Origin: Bacteroidota bacterium
GTDB taxonomy: Bacteria; Bacteroidota; Bacteroidia; Chitinophagales; Chitinophagaceae
Assembly (NCBI GenBank): GCA_018268035.1
Contig: JAFDXI010000104.1
Location: 1-36,284, forward strand
Reading direction: 5' to 3'
Length of the DNA stretch: 36,284 bases
Made by a program: the position numbers and the translations under genes. The notes under the pieces are model-generated. The model did not search any database, was not told the origin of the DNA, and saw only the letters and a list, made by a program, of their open reading frames with translations. Shown piece after piece: positions 23,165 to 35,285 of the stretch (positions are counted from its first letter, which is position 1; each line of letters starts with the position of its first letter).

Positions 23165-23230
23165 CGTAAATAAAATTGCTTGAAATGCAGGCTGGCAAAG
23201 GGTTTTAACAAAATTAAGGGTGAATTATAA

Positions 23231-23260
23231 CCGTAAAACAGGTTCAAATTGATTTTACGG
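23231..23260. promoter_or_regulatory. Inverted repeat in the divergent leuA promoter region
   Basis: CCGTAAAA (23231-23238), 14 bases, TTTTACGG (23253-23260): a perfect 8-bp inverted repeat. It lies 90 bases before leuA and 67 bases before the opposing gene, with no T-run, so an operator is more likely than a terminator. No regulator is identified. Confidence 0.4.
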
Positions 23261-23349
23261 CACTACACCTCCACGCTACCTTTATGCACTTTGCAGCCTG
23301 ATTTATTCAAAATTAATCAGTCTGCACATCTCATACTAATTTGAATGCC

Positions 23350-26039: not shown

Positions 26040-26141
26040 TGCTGTGTTGATTTTTTCAAATGGATTTTTCATCTTGGAAAAAATGAGAAATCATAAATAA
26101 TAAAAATAAATTTCTAACCTTTCGCATTGAACAGGCGATAT

Positions 26142-26894
26142 ATGAAGTGGAACGCAACATTATATGATAACAAACATGGCTTTGTAGCAAAATATGGTGA
26201 AGATGTTTTGGGTTGGCTTGCACCTCAACATGGAGAAAACATTTTAGATGTTGGTTGTGGCACCGGGACATTAACTTCAAAAATTGCTGTAAGCGGTGCA
26301 ATGGTAACCGGCATTGATGCTTCACCTGAAATGATTGAAAAAGCAACAGAAGTTTTCCCGCATATTCAATTCTTTGAAAGAGATGCAACAGATTTTTCTT
26401 TTGAGAAAAAATTTGATGCAGTGTTTTCAAATGCTGTTTTTCACTGGATAAAAAACCAGCAACAATTGTTGCAATGCATTTACGACAACCTGCAAACAGG
26501 CGGAAGGTTGGTGTATGAAATGGGTGCAAAACATAATATTGAAAACATCCACAATGCTGTTAAAAAAGTTTTGATGGAAGAAGGATTTGAAAAAAACACA
26601 AACATTGAATTGAATTATTTTTCTTCTGCAGCGCAACAGGCAGTGATGCTTGAAAATATCGGCTTCACTATTTCCAATATCATACAGTTTGAAAGGCCAA
26701 CGGAATTATCAGGTACTGATGGAATGAAAAACTGGATTATGCAGTTTGCACAACCTTTTTTCTCCAACATCACTGAAGAGAAAAAAAATGTTATGATAGA
26801 AAAAGCAGTTGCTGCTTTAAAAGAAACAAATTTTGAAAATGGCAAATGGTATGCAGATTATATCAGGTTAAGAGTGAAAGCCATTAAAAAATAA
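26142..26894 (+). CDS. Trans-aconitate methyltransferase-like SAM-dependent methyltransferase
   Basis: 250 residues from the ATG at 26142 (a TTG five codons earlier is also open). Class I methyltransferase: motif [10 protein letters not shown] (34-42), acidic D59 in [11 protein letters not shown] for the ribose of SAM, and FSNAVFHWI (95-103), the post-motif typical of the Tam family (NAxxxW). Tam methylates trans-aconitate; the yeast relative Tmt1 also methylates 3-isopropylmalate. Its place between leuC and leuD, whose enzyme handles isopropylmalate and isopropylmaleate, makes those acids plausible substrates here, but that is inference. It could equally be another small-acid methylase. 23 bases before leuD. 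Confidence 0.8.
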
Positions 26895-27595: not shown

Positions 27596-29101
27596 TTGGA
27601 AAGCAGGCATCACGATATTACAAAATATGTTCCATCCTCAACAGCAGGAAGCAATGCTGATTTGACAAATAAAAATTGCGTGATTGATATTTCATTTATG
27701 CTCAAAGCAGGTGAACATTTATTAATCACAGGCGCTTCCGGTAGTGGCAAATCCACATTAGCAAAAGCAATTGCAGGCAAAGCATTTAATAAAGGAAACA
27801 TTCATTTAGGTGTGCAGCCCCAAAAGATAATCCTGGTGGAACAGCATTATTATTTCAAAACACTTTCCAATACAAATGATTTCTACTACCAGCAACGATA
27901 CAACAGTTTCGATAGCAATGATGCATTAACCGTTTATGAAGAGCTGTTGAAAATCACTGATGCTACAGAGCAGATAGATAAACAATTGTTTCAACTAAAT
28001 CTCCTGCACCGCAAACAGGATTCATTATTACATCTTTCAAGCGGCGAGCACAAAAGGTTTCAATTGATTAAAGCTTTTTTACAGGATGCATCAGTATATA
28101 TTTTTGATTCACCATTTGTTGGTCTTGATGTAAACAGCCGCAGAAATCTTAAAGCAACGATTAATAAAAAATCTGAAACATCAACCATCATCATCATTGC
28201 TGACGTAGAAGATGCGCCAACCTGTATTACTCATGTTGCAGAAGTTTCAAATGGCCAATTGAAAGAAATTGAAAAATTAAATGATTATAAAAAACATGTT
28301 GCTGGAAACATGCAGCTTGTTACCAATCATCATCAGCCATCAATTTTCAAAGGAAATATCCCGGTAGAAAAAAATGAAATTGATTTTGATGTTGCAGTAA
28401 AACTTGAAAATGTCAACATCGCTTATGGTGAAAAAATAATCCTGGAAAATATTTCCTGGCAGATTAACCGTGGTGAAAGATGGTTGTTGAAAGGCGCTAA
28501 TGGTTCAGGCAAATCAACGCTATTGAGTTTAATTACCGGCGACCATCCGCAGGTTTATGCCAACAAAGTTTTTTTATTTGATAAAAAACGTGGAAGTGGC
28601 GAAAGTATCTGGGACATCAAAAAAAGAATCGGTTTTGTATCACCTGAACTGCATTGGTATTTTGATAAAACTATTTCCGTGTATAATACCATTGCATCCG
28701 GGTTTTTTGATACAGTAGGTGTTTATAAAAAATTGAGTGAGCAACAACATGATGTTGTGCAGCAATGGTTGTCATTTCTTCAATTAGAAAAGAAAGCATC
28801 ATTTAGTTTATCAGCACTTTCAACAAGCGGGCAAAGATTGGTTTTACTCGCAAGGGCATTAGTAAAAAACCCATCCTTGTTAATTCTTGATGAACCCTGC
28901 CAGGGACTTGATGAACAACAGGTAAAAGATTTTGTTGCGTTGGTAGATGCATTATGTTTTGAAACAGGCAACACTTTGATTTATGTAAGTCATTACGAAA
29001 ATGAAATACCTGCATGCATCAATAAAGAAATGTTACTGGAAGAAATTAAAAAGAAAAAAAATTCAATCAATATAAAAAACAAAACTGCAGTAGCAGTATA
29101 A
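27596..29101 (+). CDS. ModF-like cytoplasmic double ABC ATPase
   Basis: 501 residues, apparently starting at a TTG; the first internal ATG would cut off the first strand of domain 1. Two ABC domains, no membrane segment. Domain 1: Walker A GASGSGKST (46-54), signature LSSGEHKR, but Walker B reads FDSP, with S172 where the catalytic Glu should be, and the H-loop has D203 in place of His, so it probably binds without hydrolysing. Domain 2: Walker A GANGSGKST (301-309 region), GDHPQVYANKVFLF, RGSGESIWDIKKRIGFVS, signature STSGQ, intact Walker B LILDEP and H466. The GDHPQ and RGSGE-IWDIKK blocks are diagnostic for ModF (PhrA). ModF's role is unclear in E. coli; no molybdate genes are present here. 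Confidence 0.88.
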   Translation: MESRHHDITKYVPSSTAGSNADLTNKNCVIDISFMLKAGEHLLITGASGSGKSTLAKAIAGKAFNKGNIHLGVQPQKIILVEQHYYFKTLSNTNDFYYQQRYNSFDSNDALTVYEELLKITDATEQIDKQLFQLNLLHRKQDSLLHLSSGEHKRFQLIKAFLQDASVYIFDSPFVGLDVNSRRNLKATINKKSETSTIIIIADVEDAPTCITHVAEVSNGQLKEIEKLNDYKKHVAGNMQLVTNHHQPSIFKGNIPVEKNEIDFDVAVKLENVNIAYGEKIILENISWQINRGERWLLKGANGSGKSTLLSLITGDHPQVYANKVFLFDKKRGSGESIWDIKKRIGFVSPELHWYFDKTISVYNTIASGFFDTVGVYKKLSEQQHDVVQQWLSFLQLEKKASFSLSALSTSGQRLVLLARALVKNPSLLILDEPCQGLDEQQVKDFVALVDALCFETGNTLIYVSHYENEIPACINKEMLLEEIKKKKNSINIKNKTAVAV

Positions 29102-29128: not shown

Positions 29129-30250
29129 ATGGTTCACAAAATTACAGTTATCGAAGGCGACGGCATAGGCCCGGAAGTAACAAGGCAATCAGTAAAAATT
29201 TTAAATGCTGTGGCTGCCCGTTTCAACCACACATTTATTTATACCTATCATTTAATGGGCGCTATTGCTATTGATAAAACAGGTAACCCTCTGCCTGATG
29301 AAACCATTGAAAGTTGCTTAAACAGTGATGCAGTATTATTCGGTGCAATCGGCCATCCGAAATATGATAATGACCCAACAGCAAAAGTGCGGCCTGAACA
29401 AGGTTTGCTGAAACTAAGAAAATCTTTGCAGTTATTCGGAAATATCCGCCCCATCAATACATATCCATCGTTGCAACATTTATCACCATTGAAAAAAGAG
29501 AAACTGGATGAAGTTGATTTTATCATCTTTCGAGAGTTGACAGGTGGTATCTATTTTGGTAAAAAAGAATTATCAGCAGATGGCAACACAGCAAGCGATG
29601 ATTGTGTTTATACAAAGCCAGAGATAGAACGTATTGCCCACCTTGCTTTTCAATATGCGCAAAAACCTGAACGTAGAAAAAAATTAACGCTGGTGGACAA
29701 AGCCAATGTGCTGGAAACATCAAGGCTTTGGAGAAAGATAGTACAGGAAGTATCGCAACAATATCCTGATGTAGCCGTGGATTACATGTTTGTTGATAAT
29801 GCGGCTATGCAAATCATGCTAAATCCAAAACAATTCGACATTGTGTTGACTGAAAATATGTTTGGTGATATCATCAGCGATGAAGCCAGTGTGTTGAGTG
29901 GATCATTAGGTCTGTTACCTTCAGCATCTGTGGGCACAGGCACAGTTTTGTTTGAACCCATACATGGCTCCTATCCACAGGCAGCAGGTAAAGATATTGC
30001 AAACCCTTTGGGTTCTATTTTATCAGCAGCAATGATGCTGGACCATTTCAACCTCACACAAGAAGCAGCATTGGTGCGTGATGCGGTGAAATGGACATTG
30101 GAAAATGGTTTTGTTTCAAAAGATATTGAACCGGTGAATTTTTATTTTACATCTACCATCGGCGATTTGATCAGTGATTATATAAGATCAATAGATCATA
30201 GTAAAATCAATATTGAAAATATTCATTTGAGAAAATCAACAATCATATAA
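29129..30250 (+). CDS. leuB: 3-isopropylmalate dehydrogenase
   Basis: 373 residues. It oxidises and decarboxylates 3-isopropylmalate to 2-oxoisocaproate with NAD+. Family features: ITVIEGDGIGPEV at the N-terminus, the substrate-binding arginines in LLKLRKSLQLFGNIRP, FRELTGGIYFGKK with the catalytic Tyr, LVDKANVLETS with the catalytic Lys, the Mg2+ aspartates in NMFGDIISDEAS, and EPIHGSYPQAAGKDIANP for NAD+. Last gene of the leu block. Its stop codon overlaps an AT-rich 10-bp hairpin (30249-30258/30271-30280), and a fresh promoter for the ilv block begins 37 bases later. Confidence 0.96.
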   Translation: MVHKITVIEGDGIGPEVTRQSVKILNAVAARFNHTFIYTYHLMGAIAIDKTGNPLPDETIESCLNSDAVLFGAIGHPKYDNDPTAKVRPEQGLLKLRKSLQLFGNIRPINTYPSLQHLSPLKKEKLDEVDFIIFRELTGGIYFGKKELSADGNTASDDCVYTKPEIERIAHLAFQYAQKPERRKKLTLVDKANVLETSRLWRKIVQEVSQQYPDVAVDYMFVDNAAMQIMLNPKQFDIVLTENMFGDIISDEASVLSGSLGLLPSASVGTGTVLFEPIHGSYPQAAGKDIANPLGSILSAAMMLDHFNLTQEAALVRDAVKWTLENGFVSKDIEPVNFYFTSTIGDLISDYIRSIDHSKINIENIHLRKSTII

Positions 30251-30286: not shown

Positions 30287-30317
30287 TTTGGATAATTGAA
30301 AGGCGGTTATATATTTG
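30287..30317 (+). promoter_or_regulatory. Consensus Bacteroidetes promoter of the ilv operon
   Basis: TTTG (30287-30290), exactly 19 bases, then TATATTTG (30310-30317): a perfect match to the Bacteroidetes -33/-7 consensus. The start of transcription is expected about 5-7 bases downstream, near 30322-30324, which leaves only some 12-14 bases before the leader ATG. Confidence 0.82.
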
Positions 30318-30335
30318 CTCAACATCACTCAAAAA

Positions 30336-30428
30336 ATGTTGAACAGAATAATCAATAACATCATCGTGAACAACTCAATAATTATTGTGGTTGTCATTAT
30401 TATTTCTGTTGCAGGAGGTGGTGTTTAA
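30336..30428 (+). CDS. Ile/Val-rich leader peptide of the ilv attenuator
   Basis: A 30-codon ORF: MLNRIINNIIVNNS, then IIIVVVIII (codons 15-23, bases 30378-30404), then SVAGGGV and TAA. Ten residues are Ile and six Val, with a single Leu, matching the end products of the downstream ilv genes. The start follows AAAAA, the usual initiation context in this phylum, and lies about 13 bases from the predicted transcript start. Such peptides act through ribosome stalling when charged tRNA(Ile) or tRNA(Val) is scarce, not as proteins. The tail codons GGA-GGT-GGT-GTT carry the antiterminator strand. It is too short for ordinary gene callers. Confidence 0.88.
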   Translation: MLNRIINNIIVNNSIIIVVVIIISVAGGGV

Positions 30429-30463
30429 CAAACAAAAAATTATTTGATATATAAACCCGCCTC
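30415..30463 (+). promoter_or_regulatory. Antiterminator pairing of the ilv attenuator
   Basis: Bases 30415-30426 (GAGGTGGTGTTT, the end of the leader ORF) are complementary to 30453-30463 (AAACCCGCCTC, the 5' arm of the terminator): 11 pairs including one G-U, with a single bulged U. Pairing here excludes the terminator. A ribosome stalled in the Ile/Val run leaves 30415 onward free; a ribosome at the leader stop codon covers it. Confidence 0.8.
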
Positions 30464-30486
30464 ACATCACGAGGCGGGTTTTTTTA
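30453..30486 (+). terminator. Attenuator terminator upstream of ilvD
   Basis: AAACCCGCCTC (30453-30463) and GAGGCGGGTTT (30471-30481) make a perfect 11-bp stem with loop ACATCAC, followed by a T-run. It lies 25 bases after the leader stop and 30 bases before ilvD. A strong terminator in front of a biosynthetic gene only makes sense if it is conditional. Confidence 0.92.
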
Positions 30487-30515
30487 TTTTTAATAACAAC
30501 TATAAGACAACAATA

Positions 30516-32198
30516 ATGGCAGAGTTAAATAAATTTTCTAAAACACTTACACAGGACGAAACACAGCCGGCAGCACAGGCGATGTATTATGCAATTGGTT
30601 TTAAAGAGGAAGATTTTAAAAAAGCACAGGTTGGTGTTGTGAGCATGGGATGGGATGGCAACCCCTGCAATATGCACCTGAACGACCTCGCTACCAATGT
30701 AAAAAACAGTATCAACAAAACAGAAGGTTTATTGGGTTTACGTTTTTACACAATTGGAGTAAGTGATGGTATCAGCATGGGTACAGATGGTATGCGCTAC
30801 AGTCTGGTAAGCCGCGATGTGATTGCAGATAGTATTGAAACCAATGCAGGCGCTCAATATTATGATGCTATCGTTGCCATACCGGGATGCGATAAAAATA
30901 TGCCGGGTTGTATTATGGCCATTGGCAGATTAAACCGGCCTGCCATCATGTTATATGGCGGCACTATTGCAGCAGGGCATTATCATGGTGAAGAATTAAA
31001 TATTGTATCAACGTTTGAGGCATTGGGTCAGAAGATAATGGGCAATATCGGCGAGAAAGATTTTAAGGAAATCATCCGACACGCCTGCCCCGGGCCAGGT
31101 GCTTGTGGTGGCATGTACACTGCCAACACGATGGCAAGTGCAATTGAGGCTATGGGAATGAGCTTGCCTTATTCTGCCAGCAACCCGGCATTAAGTGAAG
31201 ACAAACAAAAAGAATGTGATGCCGTTGGCGAAGCCATAAAAAAATTGCTGGAAAAAGATATCAAGCCCAGGGATATCATGACTAAGAAAGCATTTGAAAA
31301 TGCCATTACTATCGTGATGGTTCTGGGTGGTAGTACCAATGCCGTATTGCATTTGATAGCTATGGCAAGAAGTGTTGGTGTTGATTTAACTGTTGATGAT
31401 TTCCAAAGAATCAGCGACAAGACACCAATGCTTGCAGACTTTAAACCCAGTGGTAAACACATGATGGAAGATTTGCATGCGCATGGAGGCATACCTGCTG
31501 TGATGAAATATCTTTTAGGCAAAGGCATGCTGTATGGAGACTGTATAACAGTAACAGGGAAAACTGTTGCTGAAAATCTTGCAGAAGCTGCTGTTCTTGA
31601 TTTTGATAAACAGGATATCGTAATGCCGCTTGAAAAACCAATCAAGAAAACAGGTCATTTACAAATTTTATACGGCAACCTCGCTGAAAAAGGAAGCGTA
31701 GCAAAAATCACAGGTAAAGAAGGTGAACGTTTTGAAGGAACAGCAAGGGTGTTTGATGGCGAACAACATTTACTCGAAGCTATACAAAATAAAAAAGTAC
31801 ATGCAGGGGATGTAGTGGTCATCAGGAATATCGGGCCAAAAGGTGCACCCGGAATGCCTGAAATGTTGAAACCTACCGGTGCTTTAATCGGTGCAGGTTT
31901 AGGCAAGACAGTTGCATTAATTACTGATGGAAGGTTTAGCGGCGGCACACATGGTTTTGTTGTTGGCCATGTTACACCTGAAGCACATGAAGGCGGATTG
32001 ATTGGATTGGTGAAAGATGATGATATCATTGAGATAGATGCAATCAATAATACACTTACACTAAAAGTAGGTGATGAAGAAATAGCAAAGCGGCGTGCAG
32101 CATGGAAACAACCTGCACCAAAGGCAACAAGCGGTGTGTTATTTAAATATGCCCGCTTTGTAAAAACAGCAAGTGAAGGTTGTGTAACAGATGAGTAG
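30516..32198 (+). CDS. ilvD: Dihydroxy-acid dehydratase
   Basis: 560 residues from the ATG at 30516. An in-frame ATG at 30444 is rejected: its extra 24 codons are read straight through the attenuator terminator stem and have no family resemblance. IlvD dehydrates dihydroxy-isovalerate and dihydroxy-methylvalerate, the third common step of Val/Leu/Ile synthesis, using an iron-sulfur cluster. Cluster cysteines are C51 ([10 protein letters not shown]), C125 ([11 protein letters not shown]) and C197 ([14 protein letters not shown]). Also visible are [12 protein letters not shown] and [20 protein letters not shown]. First structural gene after the Ile/Val leader. Confidence 0.96.
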
Positions 32199-32266: not shown

Positions 32267-32761
32267 ATGACACTATCATATTTAAAGGAATTAGCTACAT
32301 ACAATTTATGGGCAAATACTATTGTATGTGGTTGGCTTGAGCAGATTGATGATACACAATGGAAACAGAATATCATCAGCAGTTTCAACAGCATTCAGGA
32401 AACCGTATTGCATATTATCAGCGCAGAAAATATCTGGTTACAACGGCTCAATAAAGAACCAAAAACCATTTGGCTGCAAAATGAATTTAATGGAACAAAA
32501 GAAGAGCATACCAAACTTTGGAAAAAGACTTCAACAGATTTAAAATCATTTATTGACAACTTTAATGAAAATGATTTGAACACAAAGCTTGATTTTAAAA
32601 GACTAAATGGCGAAGCATATTCAATGCCTTTTTACCAGTTGATAGCACACGTCGTCAACCACGCAACATATCACCGGGGCCAACTGGTGACAATGTTGCG
32701 GCAAACAGGTTTTAAGAATGTAAGCTCAACAGATTTACTGGAGTTTTACAGGAAAATGTAA
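32267..32761 (+). CDS. DinB-family (YfiT/DinB four-helix) protein
   Basis: 164 residues forming four predicted helices. The DinB metal site is visible: H49 in TVLHIISAENIW and H132/H136 in HVVNHATYHRGQL. DinB-superfamily members include thiol S-transferases and metal-dependent hydrolases; most, as here, have no assigned substrate. It sits inside the ilv operon, 68 bases after ilvD and 59 before ilvB, in the same orientation and without a terminator of its own. Confidence 0.85.
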   Translation: MTLSYLKELATYNLWANTIVCGWLEQIDDTQWKQNIISSFNSIQETVLHIISAENIWLQRLNKEPKTIWLQNEFNGTKEEHTKLWKKTSTDLKSFIDNFNENDLNTKLDFKRLNGEAYSMPFYQLIAHVVNHATYHRGQLVTMLRQTGFKNVSSTDLLEFYRKM

Positions 32762-32820: not shown

Positions 32821-34557
32821 ATGGAAACGCTTGAAATTGTAAAAGAAAAGACAACAGCAGTTAAGGAAGAAAATATCTCCGGTTCAGAAGCTGTGATGCG
32901 GGCTTTGATAGCAGAAGAAGTTGACACCATTTTTGGTTACCCTGGTGGCGCTATTATGCCCATTTATGACGCGTTGTATGATTATGACAATAAACTAAAG
33001 CATATACTGGTGCGCCATGAGCAAGGCTCTATCCATGCGGCACAGGGATATGCAAGGACCAGTGGAAAAACAGGTGTAGTGTTTGCTACAAGTGGGCCGG
33101 GTGCAACTAATTTAGTTACTGGTCTTGCTGATGCCATGATTGATTCCACTCCTATAGTGTGTATAACGGGTCAGGTATTTGCGCATTTACTGGGCACTGA
33201 TGCATTTCAGGAAACTGATGTCATCAATATTACAACACCCGTTACTAAATGGAATTACCAGGTAACTGATGCTAATGAAATTCTTTCTGCATTAGCTAAA
33301 GCATTTTACATTGCAAAAAGCGGAAGGCCAGGTCCGGTATTGATTGATATAACCAAGAATGCGCAGGTGCAAAAATTTGATTACAAAGGTTATGAAAAAT
33401 GCAATCATATCCGCAGCTATCGCCCCAAACCTTTTATCAGGAAAAAATATATTGAACAGGCTGCAGCTTTAATCAACGAAGCAAAAAAACCATTTGTGAT
33501 TTTTGGGCAGGGAGTGATATTAGGAGATGCAGAAAAAGAGTTTCGGCAGTTCATTGAAAAAGCCGGTATCCCATCTGCCTGGACGGTGCTCGGATTAAGC
33601 GCATTGCCTACTGACCATCCTTTAAATGTCGGCATGTTGGGGATGCATGGTAATTATGGCCCGAATGTGTTAACAAATGAATGTGATGTTTTGATAGCAA
33701 TCGGTATGCGTTTCGATGACCGTGTAACAGGCCGATTGGATAAATATGCAAAACAGGCAAAAATCATCCATCTCGATATTGACCCCGCAGAAATTGATAA
33801 GAACGTTCAGACAACTATTCCAGTATGGGGCGATTGCAAAGAAACTTTACCACTCCTGACAACATTGGTTAATAAAAAAGAACACAAAGAATGGTTGAAG
33901 AAATTCAATGATTTTTCAAAAGAAGAAAATGAAATTGTTATTAAAAAAGAAATGCATCCAACAACAAATGAAATGAGTATGGCTGAAGTGATTGATGCGT
34001 TGAACGAACTCACAAATGGAGATGCAGTAATAGTTTCAGATGTAGGGCAGCATCAGATGGTTGCCTGTCGTTATACAAAATTTAACCAGTCAAGAAGCAA
34101 TGTAACATCAGGGGGCCTTGGCACTATGGGCTTTGGCTTGCCGGCAGCTATTGGCGCTAAATACGGTGCTCCGCAAAGAGAAGTTGTTGCTATTATTGGT
34201 GATGGTGGTTTTCAAATGACCATCCAGGAATTAGGAACGATAATGCAGTTTGGTGCAGCAGTTAAAATTCTTGTGTTGAATAATAATTTCCTCGGTATGG
34301 TGCGTCAATGGCAACAATTGTTCAATGACAGAAGGTATTCATTTGTTGACATTCAAAGCCCCGATTTTGTTGCAGTTGCAAAAGCTTACAACATCACAGG
34401 CCAATCAGTAAATGACAGAAAAAATTTAAAAGCTGCATTAAAAGAAATGCTGGATCACAAGGGCGCTTATCTATTGGAAGTAATGGTGGGAAAAGAAAAC
34501 AATGTATTTCCAATGGTGCCACAGGGTTGCAGTGTTGCTGAAATAAGATTAAAATAA
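32821..34557 (+). CDS. ilvB: Acetolactate synthase large (catalytic) subunit
   Basis: 578 residues, a ThDP/FAD enzyme that makes acetolactate or acetohydroxybutyrate from pyruvate (plus 2-oxobutyrate), the first common step of Val/Leu/Ile synthesis. Visible: FGYPGGAIMPIYDAL, catalytic E67 in VRHEQGSIHAAQGYAR, ATSGPGATNLVTGLADA, the FAD region IGMRFDDRVTGRLDKY, and the ThDP-Mg motif beginning GDGG at 460-463 and running to the NNN before FLGMVRQW. That the small subunit follows supports a valine-regulated anabolic enzyme rather than a catabolic AlsS. A 10-bp hairpin separates it from ilvH. Confidence 0.97.
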   Translation: METLEIVKEKTTAVKEENISGSEAVMRALIAEEVDTIFGYPGGAIMPIYDALYDYDNKLKHILVRHEQGSIHAAQGYARTSGKTGVVFATSGPGATNLVTGLADAMIDSTPIVCITGQVFAHLLGTDAFQETDVINITTPVTKWNYQVTDANEILSALAKAFYIAKSGRPGPVLIDITKNAQVQKFDYKGYEKCNHIRSYRPKPFIRKKYIEQAAALINEAKKPFVIFGQGVILGDAEKEFRQFIEKAGIPSAWTVLGLSALPTDHPLNVGMLGMHGNYGPNVLTNECDVLIAIGMRFDDRVTGRLDKYAKQAKIIHLDIDPAEIDKNVQTTIPVWGDCKETLPLLTTLVNKKEHKEWLKKFNDFSKEENEIVIKKEMHPTTNEMSMAEVIDALNELTNGDAVIVSDVGQHQMVACRYTKFNQSRSNVTSGGLGTMGFGLPAAIGAKYGAPQREVVAIIGDGGFQMTIQELGTIMQFGAAVKILVLNNNFLGMVRQWQQLFNDRRYSFVDIQSPDFVAVAKAYNITGQSVNDRKNLKAALKEMLDHKGAYLLEVMVGKENNVFPMVPQGCSVAEIRLK

Positions 34558-34637: not shown

Positions 34638-35285
34638 ATGAACAACGATAATAAAAATCAATATGCTCCCAATTCTTCAGCATCAGGTGGGGCAAAGGGC
34701 AAGCAGGAATACACTATAACGGTTTATACTGAAAACCAGATTGGTTTACTCAACAGGATTGCCATCATGTTTACACGCAGAAAAATGAATATTGACAGTT
34801 TCAATACTTCTCCTACTGAAGTGGACAGTGTGCACCGTTTTAATATTGTAGTAAATGAAACAGAAGAAGTAGTAAGAAAACTATGCAGGCAAATTGAAAA
34901 ACAGGTAGAAGTTTTGAAAGTATATTTTAATACCAATGATGAAATTGTATGGCAGGAAATGGCTTTATACAAAGTGCCGGCTGATGTGATTGCAACAAAA
35001 GTAAAAGTGGAAAGGCTGCTTCGTGAAAAAGGCGCCCGCGTGGTAGCCATCCGAACAGATTATATTGTGTTTGAAACAAGCGGCCACCGCGAAGAAATTA
35101 ATGCGCTCACCAAAGCGCTTGAGCCTTATGGGCTGATAGAATTTGTGCGCACTGCCCGCATCGCTATCATTAATAACAGTAAAGGCTTCCACGAAAAACT
35201 CAAAGAGTTTGAAGCCCTACAACCAGGTGAAGGTATCATATCCAATGAATTTTTAAACCAGCAGGACAAAGTGTTCAGCATGTAA
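34638..35285 (+). CDS. ilvH: Acetolactate synthase small (regulatory) subunit
   Basis: 215 residues. After a polar N-terminal 22 residues comes the ACT domain YTITVYTENQIGLLNRIAIMFTRRKMNIDSFNTS (about 24-58), where valine binds in the family, followed by the conserved C-terminal domain with VARTARIAI-type ending EFVRTARIAIINNSKGF. It activates IlvB and confers feedback inhibition by valine. Together with the leader peptide this gives the ilv block both enzyme-level and transcript-level end-product control. Slightly longer than the ~160-170-residue E. coli type because of both termini. Confidence 0.94.
   Translation: MNNDNKNQYAPNSSASGGAKGKQEYTITVYTENQIGLLNRIAIMFTRRKMNIDSFNTSPTEVDSVHRFNIVVNETEEVVRKLCRQIEKQVEVLKVYFNTNDEIVWQEMALYKVPADVIATKVKVERLLREKGARVVAIRTDYIVFETSGHREEINALTKALEPYGLIEFVRTARIAIINNSKGFHEKLKEFEALQPGEGIISNEFLNQQDKVFSM

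Follow-up and report, generated by a model that had tools for sequence, protein, structure and literature searches.

The subject of this report is a putative transcription attenuator directly ahead of ilvD in a Chitinophagaceae bacterium of the phylum Bacteroidota; it lies at 30287-30516 of a 36,284-nucleotide stretch of DNA (GenBank assembly GCA_018268035.1, contig JAFDXI010000104.1), which we call the window, and all features given below are on its + strand. The promoter consists of a -33 element, TTTG (30287-30290), a 19-nt spacer and a -7 element, TATATTTG (30310-30317; consensus TAnnTTTG), which jointly score 10/10 against the sigma-ABfr consensus quoted in PMC7366714. After a further 18 nt, the ATG at 30336 opens a leader-peptide gene of 30 codons (MLNRIINNIIVNNSIIIVVVIIISVAGGGV; 30336-30428, the TAA ending at 30428), in which 16 of the 30 residues are Ile or Val. 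Codons 15-23 (30378-30404) form an uninterrupted Ile3-Val3-Ile3 run; this codon pattern occurs just once in the 4.47-Mb assembly, namely in this leader, and the reversed control pattern not at all. Between the leader stop and the start of ilvD (dihydroxy-acid dehydratase, 30516-32198; NCBIfam TIGR00110, 741.6 bits, over the cut-off), which is presumably the first regulated gene, there are 87 nt that accommodate an 11-bp stem with a 7-nt loop (30453-30463 with 30471-30481) and the seven T of an intrinsic terminator (30479-30485). An earlier note on this DNA had described such a promoter, a leader with III-VVV-III and 16/30 Ile or Val, and an 11-bp terminator: all are present.

Four RNA strands can be recognized here. 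Strand 2, the putative antiterminator (GAGGTGGTGTTTA, 30415-30427), was delineated from the fold of 30385-30463, from duplex tests and from pair counts; it is situated within the final leader codons, as the earlier note had it, although that note assigned it 11 bp and the span 30415-30426, whereas we count 12 bp with strand 3 (30452-30463) and one bulged U (30422). The interval between the Ile/Val run and strand 2 is likewise 10 nt and not 11. Strand 3 is, on the evidence of the folds and of pairing across relatives, the alternative partner of either strand 2 or strand 4 (30471-30481), the latter being the terminator's 3' arm. Overlooked in the earlier description was strand 1 (30321-30329), a predicted anti-antiterminator which pairs with 30417-30425 in minimum-free-energy folds, and which would be located near the transcript start, the position of which is itself deduced. 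Its addition to strands 2, 3 and 4 makes four strands in all, which is the layout of the classical trp, his and ilv attenuators. We do not regard this arrangement as a product of chance, because the 201-nt leader region folds with a z-score of -3.89 (0/200 shuffles equally good), the codon pattern is unique in the assembly, the strand 2:strand 3 (2:3) duplex is matched by only 0.5% of 200 shuffles, and there are close homologues in relatives. For the strand 1:strand 2 (1:2) duplex of the window, 1.5% of shuffles do as well.

The geometry was explored with a stalling model, which assumes that the ribosome masks 12 nt from the first A-site base. With a stall at any of codons 15-23, the whole of the 2:3 helix is predicted to be kept, with energies between -16.8 and -17.1 kcal/mol while strand 4 is still absent. 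The predicted energy then falls away rapidly: -12.1 kcal/mol for codon 24, -5.4 for codon 25 and -1.7 for codon 26; with the ribosome modelled at codons 27-31 (that is, through the stop), strand 2 is covered and no 2:3 fold is left. According to these energies, therefore, the regulatory run ends where masking begins. The model thus agrees with the earlier note, in which a ribosome stalled in the first part of the run was said to leave strand 2 free and one at the stop codon to cover it.

We propose, with a probability of roughly 0.9, that charged tRNA-Ile and tRNA-Val are sensed here by ribosome-mediated attenuation of transcription; what we infer from the sequence are the transcript start, translation without a Shine-Dalgarno sequence, stalling, termination and the response to starvation. 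RNA polymerase would start about 15 nt upstream of the leader ATG. When Ile and Val are plentiful, the ribosome would pass the Ile/Val codons, proceed into the Gly codons and the stop, and cover strand 2; strands 3 and 4 would then form the terminator, and transcription would end before ilvD. When Ile or Val is short, the ribosome would stall in codons 15-23 and leave strand 2 free to capture strand 3 ahead of the synthesis of strand 4, so that no terminator forms, and ilvD and the downstream genes are transcribed. Were the leader not translated at all, strand 1 would pair with strand 2, and the terminator would form by default. If this proposal is true, a very short leader gene together with an RNA switch lets ilv transcription proceed only when Ile or Val is short. 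The enterobacterial type of attenuator logic, which the earlier note had claimed for this leader, is supported by our analysis of its sequence.

Similar leaders are widespread among relatives. A covariance model built from six leaders (R1), with which we searched 394 genomes of the family, matches 249 of them at E<=0.1 and at least 150 at E<=9.2e-6 (150 listed places, in 150 different genomes); the weaker matches may be plain terminators. We also fetched 80 ilvD loci, 42 of them from Bacteroidota (L003-L044, in our numbering of loci), and a clear leader was found in 26 of these 42. In six of the 26, ilvD is the next gene (L006, L010, L011, L016, L018, L033); in the other 20 the next gene is ilvE, the leader being about 1 kb further upstream. 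The short Ile/Val-rich reading frame with a terminator that the earlier note proposed to look for in related genomes thus recurs before ilvE or ilvD. A simple leader scanner overlooked real leaders (L009, L016, L025, L033), and its blanks were not scored as absences; absence calls rest on inspection of the loci and on a model search with matches to E<=10.

For comparative work we assembled 51 loci: the window, the 26 ilvD-derived loci and the 24 best-scoring loci from further family genomes (these are 57 matches minus a reverse-strand match in L033 and five repeats, L084, L086, L091, L109 and L110). The leader is followed by ilvE in 33 loci and by ilvD in 17; in the remaining one (L102) neither gene comes next. 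The gene from L014 that served as reference for ilvE matches the branched-chain transaminase model TIGR01122 over its cut-off. In each of the 51, a leader of 26-38 residues starts with ATG and contains an Ile/Val run; each also has a stem of 8 bp or more, with six or more T within the 12 nt that surround its 3' end, as retrieved by a search that scores for both. A promoter scoring at least 9/10 occurs within 43 nt upstream of the leader in 41/51, and its score is reached by at most 5% of shuffles in 32/51. In 40 of the 51 loci, the antiterminator begins 15 nt downstream of the first nucleotide of the final run codon; this nearly fixed distance is 9-21 nt in the other 11 (12 nt in the window).

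The leaders are presumed to be translated. Single-base codon differences between them number 2776, 1963 and 6550 at codon positions 1, 2 and 3 (5544 of these differences being synonymous), and the third-position excess (6550/11289) speaks for translation of the leader; these differences were counted over all leader pairs and are hence not independent. The composition of the run varies (IIIVVVIII, IIIVVVVIII, LVVIVVVII) and remains branched-chain. Outside the run, the leader is conserved in a PALHGGG-like tail, and the N-terminal half is more variable. This conserved tail coincides with strand 2. At L106 (434-534), the tail is shifted to another frame (PAQTEVVFNV) and the strand-2 letters GGAGGTGGTGTT are retained, which suggests that selection acts here on the RNA and not so much on the peptide tail.

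Pair counts were made in an alignment (A5) of 50 distinct rows that was not fitted to a structure. The terminator is paired in 95.2% of 500 cells, compared with at most 59.0% for slid versions, and no shuffle of 500 equals it; both-sided changes occur in 8/10 pairs (28 cells), so compensatory change in the terminator is strong. For the antiterminator, 90.8% of 400 cells are paired vs 51.3-67.8% in slid versions, and its covariation is modest. The compensatory changes that the earlier note had proposed to look for in strands 2, 3 and 4 are thus borne out for the terminator, whereas the antiterminator is conserved but covaries to a limited degree. In duplex tests against 200 shuffles, which preserve base composition only, the 2:3 duplex is equaled by at most 5% of shuffles in 50/51 loci and by at most 1% in 39/51; the 1:2 duplex beats 95% of shuffles in 42/51. 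When strand 3 was swapped between species (2456 comparisons), strand 2 paired more stably with its own strand 3 in 1555 comparisons and less stably in 741, with 160 ties. Individual loci differ in this regard: L094 combines GGAAG with CGCTTC, and on the arms of others the pairing of its strand 2 is weaker by 5 kcal/mol, while the strand 2 of others pairs slightly better on the L094 arm, through wobbles. On foreign arms, strand 2 of L020 loses 7 kcal/mol and that of L018 loses 3; strand 2 of L017, L025 and L029 is predicted to pair better with the arms of other loci. The Chitinophaga leaders (L030, L032, L034, L035) have the 5' arm GCCTTCCTC, a matching 3' arm and the leader end GGAGGATAG. At L016, L033 and L112, the terminator's 3' arm carries a GAGACGGG mismatch that weakens the terminator, and the 5' arm, which is shared with the antiterminator, retains the common CCCGCCTC.

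Several observations weigh against an attenuator, or against the reach of the evidence for one. The full transcript always folds into the terminator, which is more stable when all strands are present; antitermination must therefore be kinetic, chosen during transcription. Both-sided changes in the antiterminator are confined to 3/8 pairs and 5 cells (values reached by 32 and 2 of 500 shuffles, respectively), its covariation score is reached by 22/500 shuffles and its number of pair types by 93/500. The own 2:3 pair is equal or less stable in 901/2456 swaps, 9/51 loci fail the 1:2 duplex test, and 10/51 have no promoter scoring 9/10. The features common to the 51 loci are also partly selected: the search model held the terminator and the run, and our scripts favour ATG, Ile/Val density and T-rich stems.

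The distribution is patchy, too. The earlier note had named conservation of ilvD without the leader as a finding that would speak against its reading, and both situations exist: set against the 26/42 Bacteroidota ilvD loci with a leader, 16/42 have none in the fetched stretch (L004, L005, L013, L021, L022, L024, L026, L031, L036-L038, L040-L044), and these include two of the loci nearest in ilvD (L004 and L005; identity 88 and 87%). Within the window's genus, a strong R1 match is found in only 2/8 genomes; among the six without one, three have a completeness of 63-67%. For eight of the 16 leaderless loci, whole genomes were searched with a second model, which returned 12 loci, and none of the five that were read is an ilv leader: L150 is a Cys leader and L153 a Thr/Ile leader, and L151, L152 and L158 have no leader. 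Weak model matches at the expected distance in Sphingobacterium (L036-L038, 16.5-17.3 bits) were rejected, because what was matched there is the 3' end of a protein-coding frame together with a terminator.

Alternatively, the hairpin could simply be the intergenic terminator of the leuB transcript, next to a gene for a small hydrophobic peptide with its own function (e.g., a membrane peptide): leuB ends at 30250, just upstream, and the peptide is indeed hydrophobic and variable in its tail. We consider this highly improbable, given that leader and terminator precede ilvE as a unit in 33/51 loci, that a promoter of at least 9/10 stands ahead of the leader in 41/51, that the leader end and the 5' arm of the terminator are complementary in 50/51 (at most 5% of shuffles being as good), and that L106 has kept its strand-2 letters through a change of tail frame. 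Little more than a slim chance is likewise accorded to stalling that is brought about by the nascent peptide or a bound ligand, as it is in tna- and erm-type leaders, instead of by tRNA charging. Conservation of the peptide past the run, in the PALHGGG-like tail, would fit such a mechanism, but that tail overlaps strand 2, the N-terminal half varies more, and the make-up of the run changes yet stays branched-chain; moreover, other families place different Ile/Val peptides at ilvE, His peptides at hisG and Thr/Ile peptides at aspartokinase genes.

The least probable explanation, in our judgment, is that the leader mainly couples translation (through reinitiation or polarity), the hairpin acting on RNA stability or Rho and not as an intrinsic terminator. 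Bacteroidetes leader genes are reported in PMC4833913 to peak 11-14 bp before the next gene, and reinitiation was proposed there; the stop of the present leader is, by contrast, 87 nt from ilvD, with the 11-bp stem and seven T in between, and a stem of 8 bp or more, accompanied by six or more T, recurs in 51/51 loci, albeit in a search that scores both.

Candidate leader attenuators occur elsewhere in the phylum, too. The second model (R2) matches 51/395 phylum genomes at E<=0.01; we read 29 of these loci, of which eight are from the window's family and are ilv leaders, and 21 are from other families. Eighteen of the 21 resemble leader attenuators, and the remaining three (L130, L135, L136) have no recognisable leader of the attenuator kind. 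Of the 18, six have a short Ile/Val leader before ilvE (L124, L126, L127, L129, L139, L142) and two have one before an ilvN-like gene (L125, L134); ilvA is preceded by an Ile leader in three (L131, L141, L144), aspartokinase by a Thr/Ile leader in three (L128, L132, L140) and hisG by a His leader in four (L133, L137, L138, L143), L133 belonging to another class of the phylum; L153, from the genome of L036, also has its Thr/Ile leader before aspartokinase. Seven of the 18 downstream genes were checked against NCBIfam (L124, L126, L139, L141, L128, L133, and L134, which is below the cut-off); the others were named from their N-termini by eye.

The window's own genome has further candidates. At L145, hisG is preceded by a terminator and a His leader (MICNTHTHHHHFIPPGKLL), which has TACATTTG on its upstream side, and a candidate strand for pairing with the 5' arm of the terminator can be recognized by eye; we count this own-genome His leader at hisG in favour of attenuation. 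By eye, no leader was found in approximately 420 nt upstream of the own-genome aspartokinase genes (L146, L147, L148). There are also two Cys-rich leaders (MYNPSSICCCMC and the like), each with a terminator and a complementary strand: one (L195:12-92) precedes a uroporphyrinogen-III methyltransferase gene and a cysJ-like gene that is incomplete in the fetched stretch, and the other (L192, L196) precedes cysH. Elsewhere in the genus, Cys-rich leaders (L187-L191, L194) precede either cysH or the same pair of uroporphyrinogen-III methyltransferase and cysJ-like genes. A genus search for Cys leaders gave ten sites at E<=5e-11; in all eight that were read, at most 3.3% of shuffles match the real 2:3 pairing. 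These leaders are candidate cysteine attenuators of sulfate assimilation. A Cys-run pattern was also searched in 294 family genomes, of which 221 matched, and TGC/TGT repeats were frequent among the hits; of L150 and 25 fetched loci, only L150 passed the leader/terminator filter.

As to the neighbourhood of the leader in the window, ilvD is followed by the genes for the large (32821-34557; NCBIfam TIGR00118, 713.2 bits) and small (34638-35285; TIGR00119, 102.5 bits) subunits of acetolactate synthase, both over the cut-off and both, judging from gene order, presumed members of the ilvD operon. A 164-residue open reading frame (32267-32761) between ilvD and these genes has no NCBIfam match at the thresholds used. 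Upstream of the leader are leuA, leuC, leuD and leuB, among which lie a methyltransferase-like gene (26127-26894) and a gene for a ModF-like double ABC-ATPase (27596-29101), neither of which reaches the cut-off of its best model. Inspection of 23165-23340 by eye disclosed no leader ahead of leuA (23341).

We would give even odds to a broader proposition: that in the class Bacteroidia, ribosome-mediated attenuation is a general device for amino-acid supply (ilv, ilvA, thr, his) and for sulfate assimilation (Cys leaders at cysH and at siroheme/sulfite-reductase genes), that it operates without Shine-Dalgarno sequences, so that RNA polymerase and ribosome would be closely coupled, and that it possibly arose independently of the proteobacterial attenuators. 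Close coupling of RNA polymerase and ribosome has, to our knowledge, not been established in Bacteroidota. Since an attenuator needs a ribosome close behind RNA polymerase, and these leaders would be translated in the absence of a Shine-Dalgarno sequence, they offer a direct test of transcription-translation coupling in this phylum, whose mRNAs are described in PMC7366714 as lacking classical Shine-Dalgarno sequences. The Bacteroidota leaders also bear on the supposition, made in a 2013 survey (PMC3766115), that such attenuators may have arisen in gamma-proteobacteria and underwent very little transfer.

No Rfam family matches the window at its gathering score, and the thresholds of the amino-acid leader families (Leu, Thr, Trp, His, Phe) are accordingly not reached there. 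Sub-threshold scores in the leader region (Leu_leader, 24.7 of 50 bits; Thr_leader, 26.9 of 55; Trp_leader, 22.7 of 41; Phe_leader, 28.5 of 55) stand amid those of many unrelated families. Bacteroid-trp (RF01692), which we take to be an attenuator and the name of which suggests a connection to trp genes, matches neither the window nor, at E<=5, the leader region. It is among the likely cis-regulatory RNAs of Bacteroidetes listed in PMC2864571. The idea of leader-peptide attenuation in this phylum is not itself new: PMC9723704 (2021) speaks of 'strong clues' of it upstream of amino-acid operons in Flavobacterium psychrophilum, naming structured 5' elements at pheA and hisG among others, and small open reading frames that resemble leader peptides are mentioned for B. 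thetaiotaomicron in PMC7366714. The main text of PMC9723704 contains no 'ilvD', and its attenuator section no ilv leader. Our literature search, which left subscription journals mostly outside its reach, found, among the titles listed, none on an ilv attenuator in Bacteroidota. The abstract of Vitreschak et al. 2004 (FEMS Microbiol Lett 234:357) reportedly names Bacteroidetes/Chlorobi. The earlier note had left undecided whether such a system was described in this phylum; attenuation in Bacteroidota is known as an idea, in outline, and a conserved ilv family without an Rfam entry is an addition.

Among known systems, the actinobacterial ilvB leaders (PMC1262725) resemble that of the window in having a short open reading frame with Ile/Val/Leu runs, and a terminator, before ilv genes; they differ in that the reading frame overlaps the candidate terminator, and their mode of action is called unclear in that source. 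A further parallel is IlvL of the E. coli ilvXGMEDA operon, likewise a short leader that contains an Ile/Val run and stands ahead of ilv genes. The E. coli ilv attenuator also uses competing RNA strands, in the same layout as the window family. The heptapeptide VVVIIIP is common to E. coli IlvL (NC_000913; L114:23-121) and several of our leaders (window positions 30378-30414 were compared); this shared sequence sits in the low-complexity run and fits descent or convergence alike. The window family is set apart from IlvL by its Bacteroidota promoter, by a leader for which no Shine-Dalgarno sequence is expected, by having ilvE or ilvD as the first gene and, unlike the E. coli ilv attenuator, by an antiterminator that is built on GGAGG in Gly codons.

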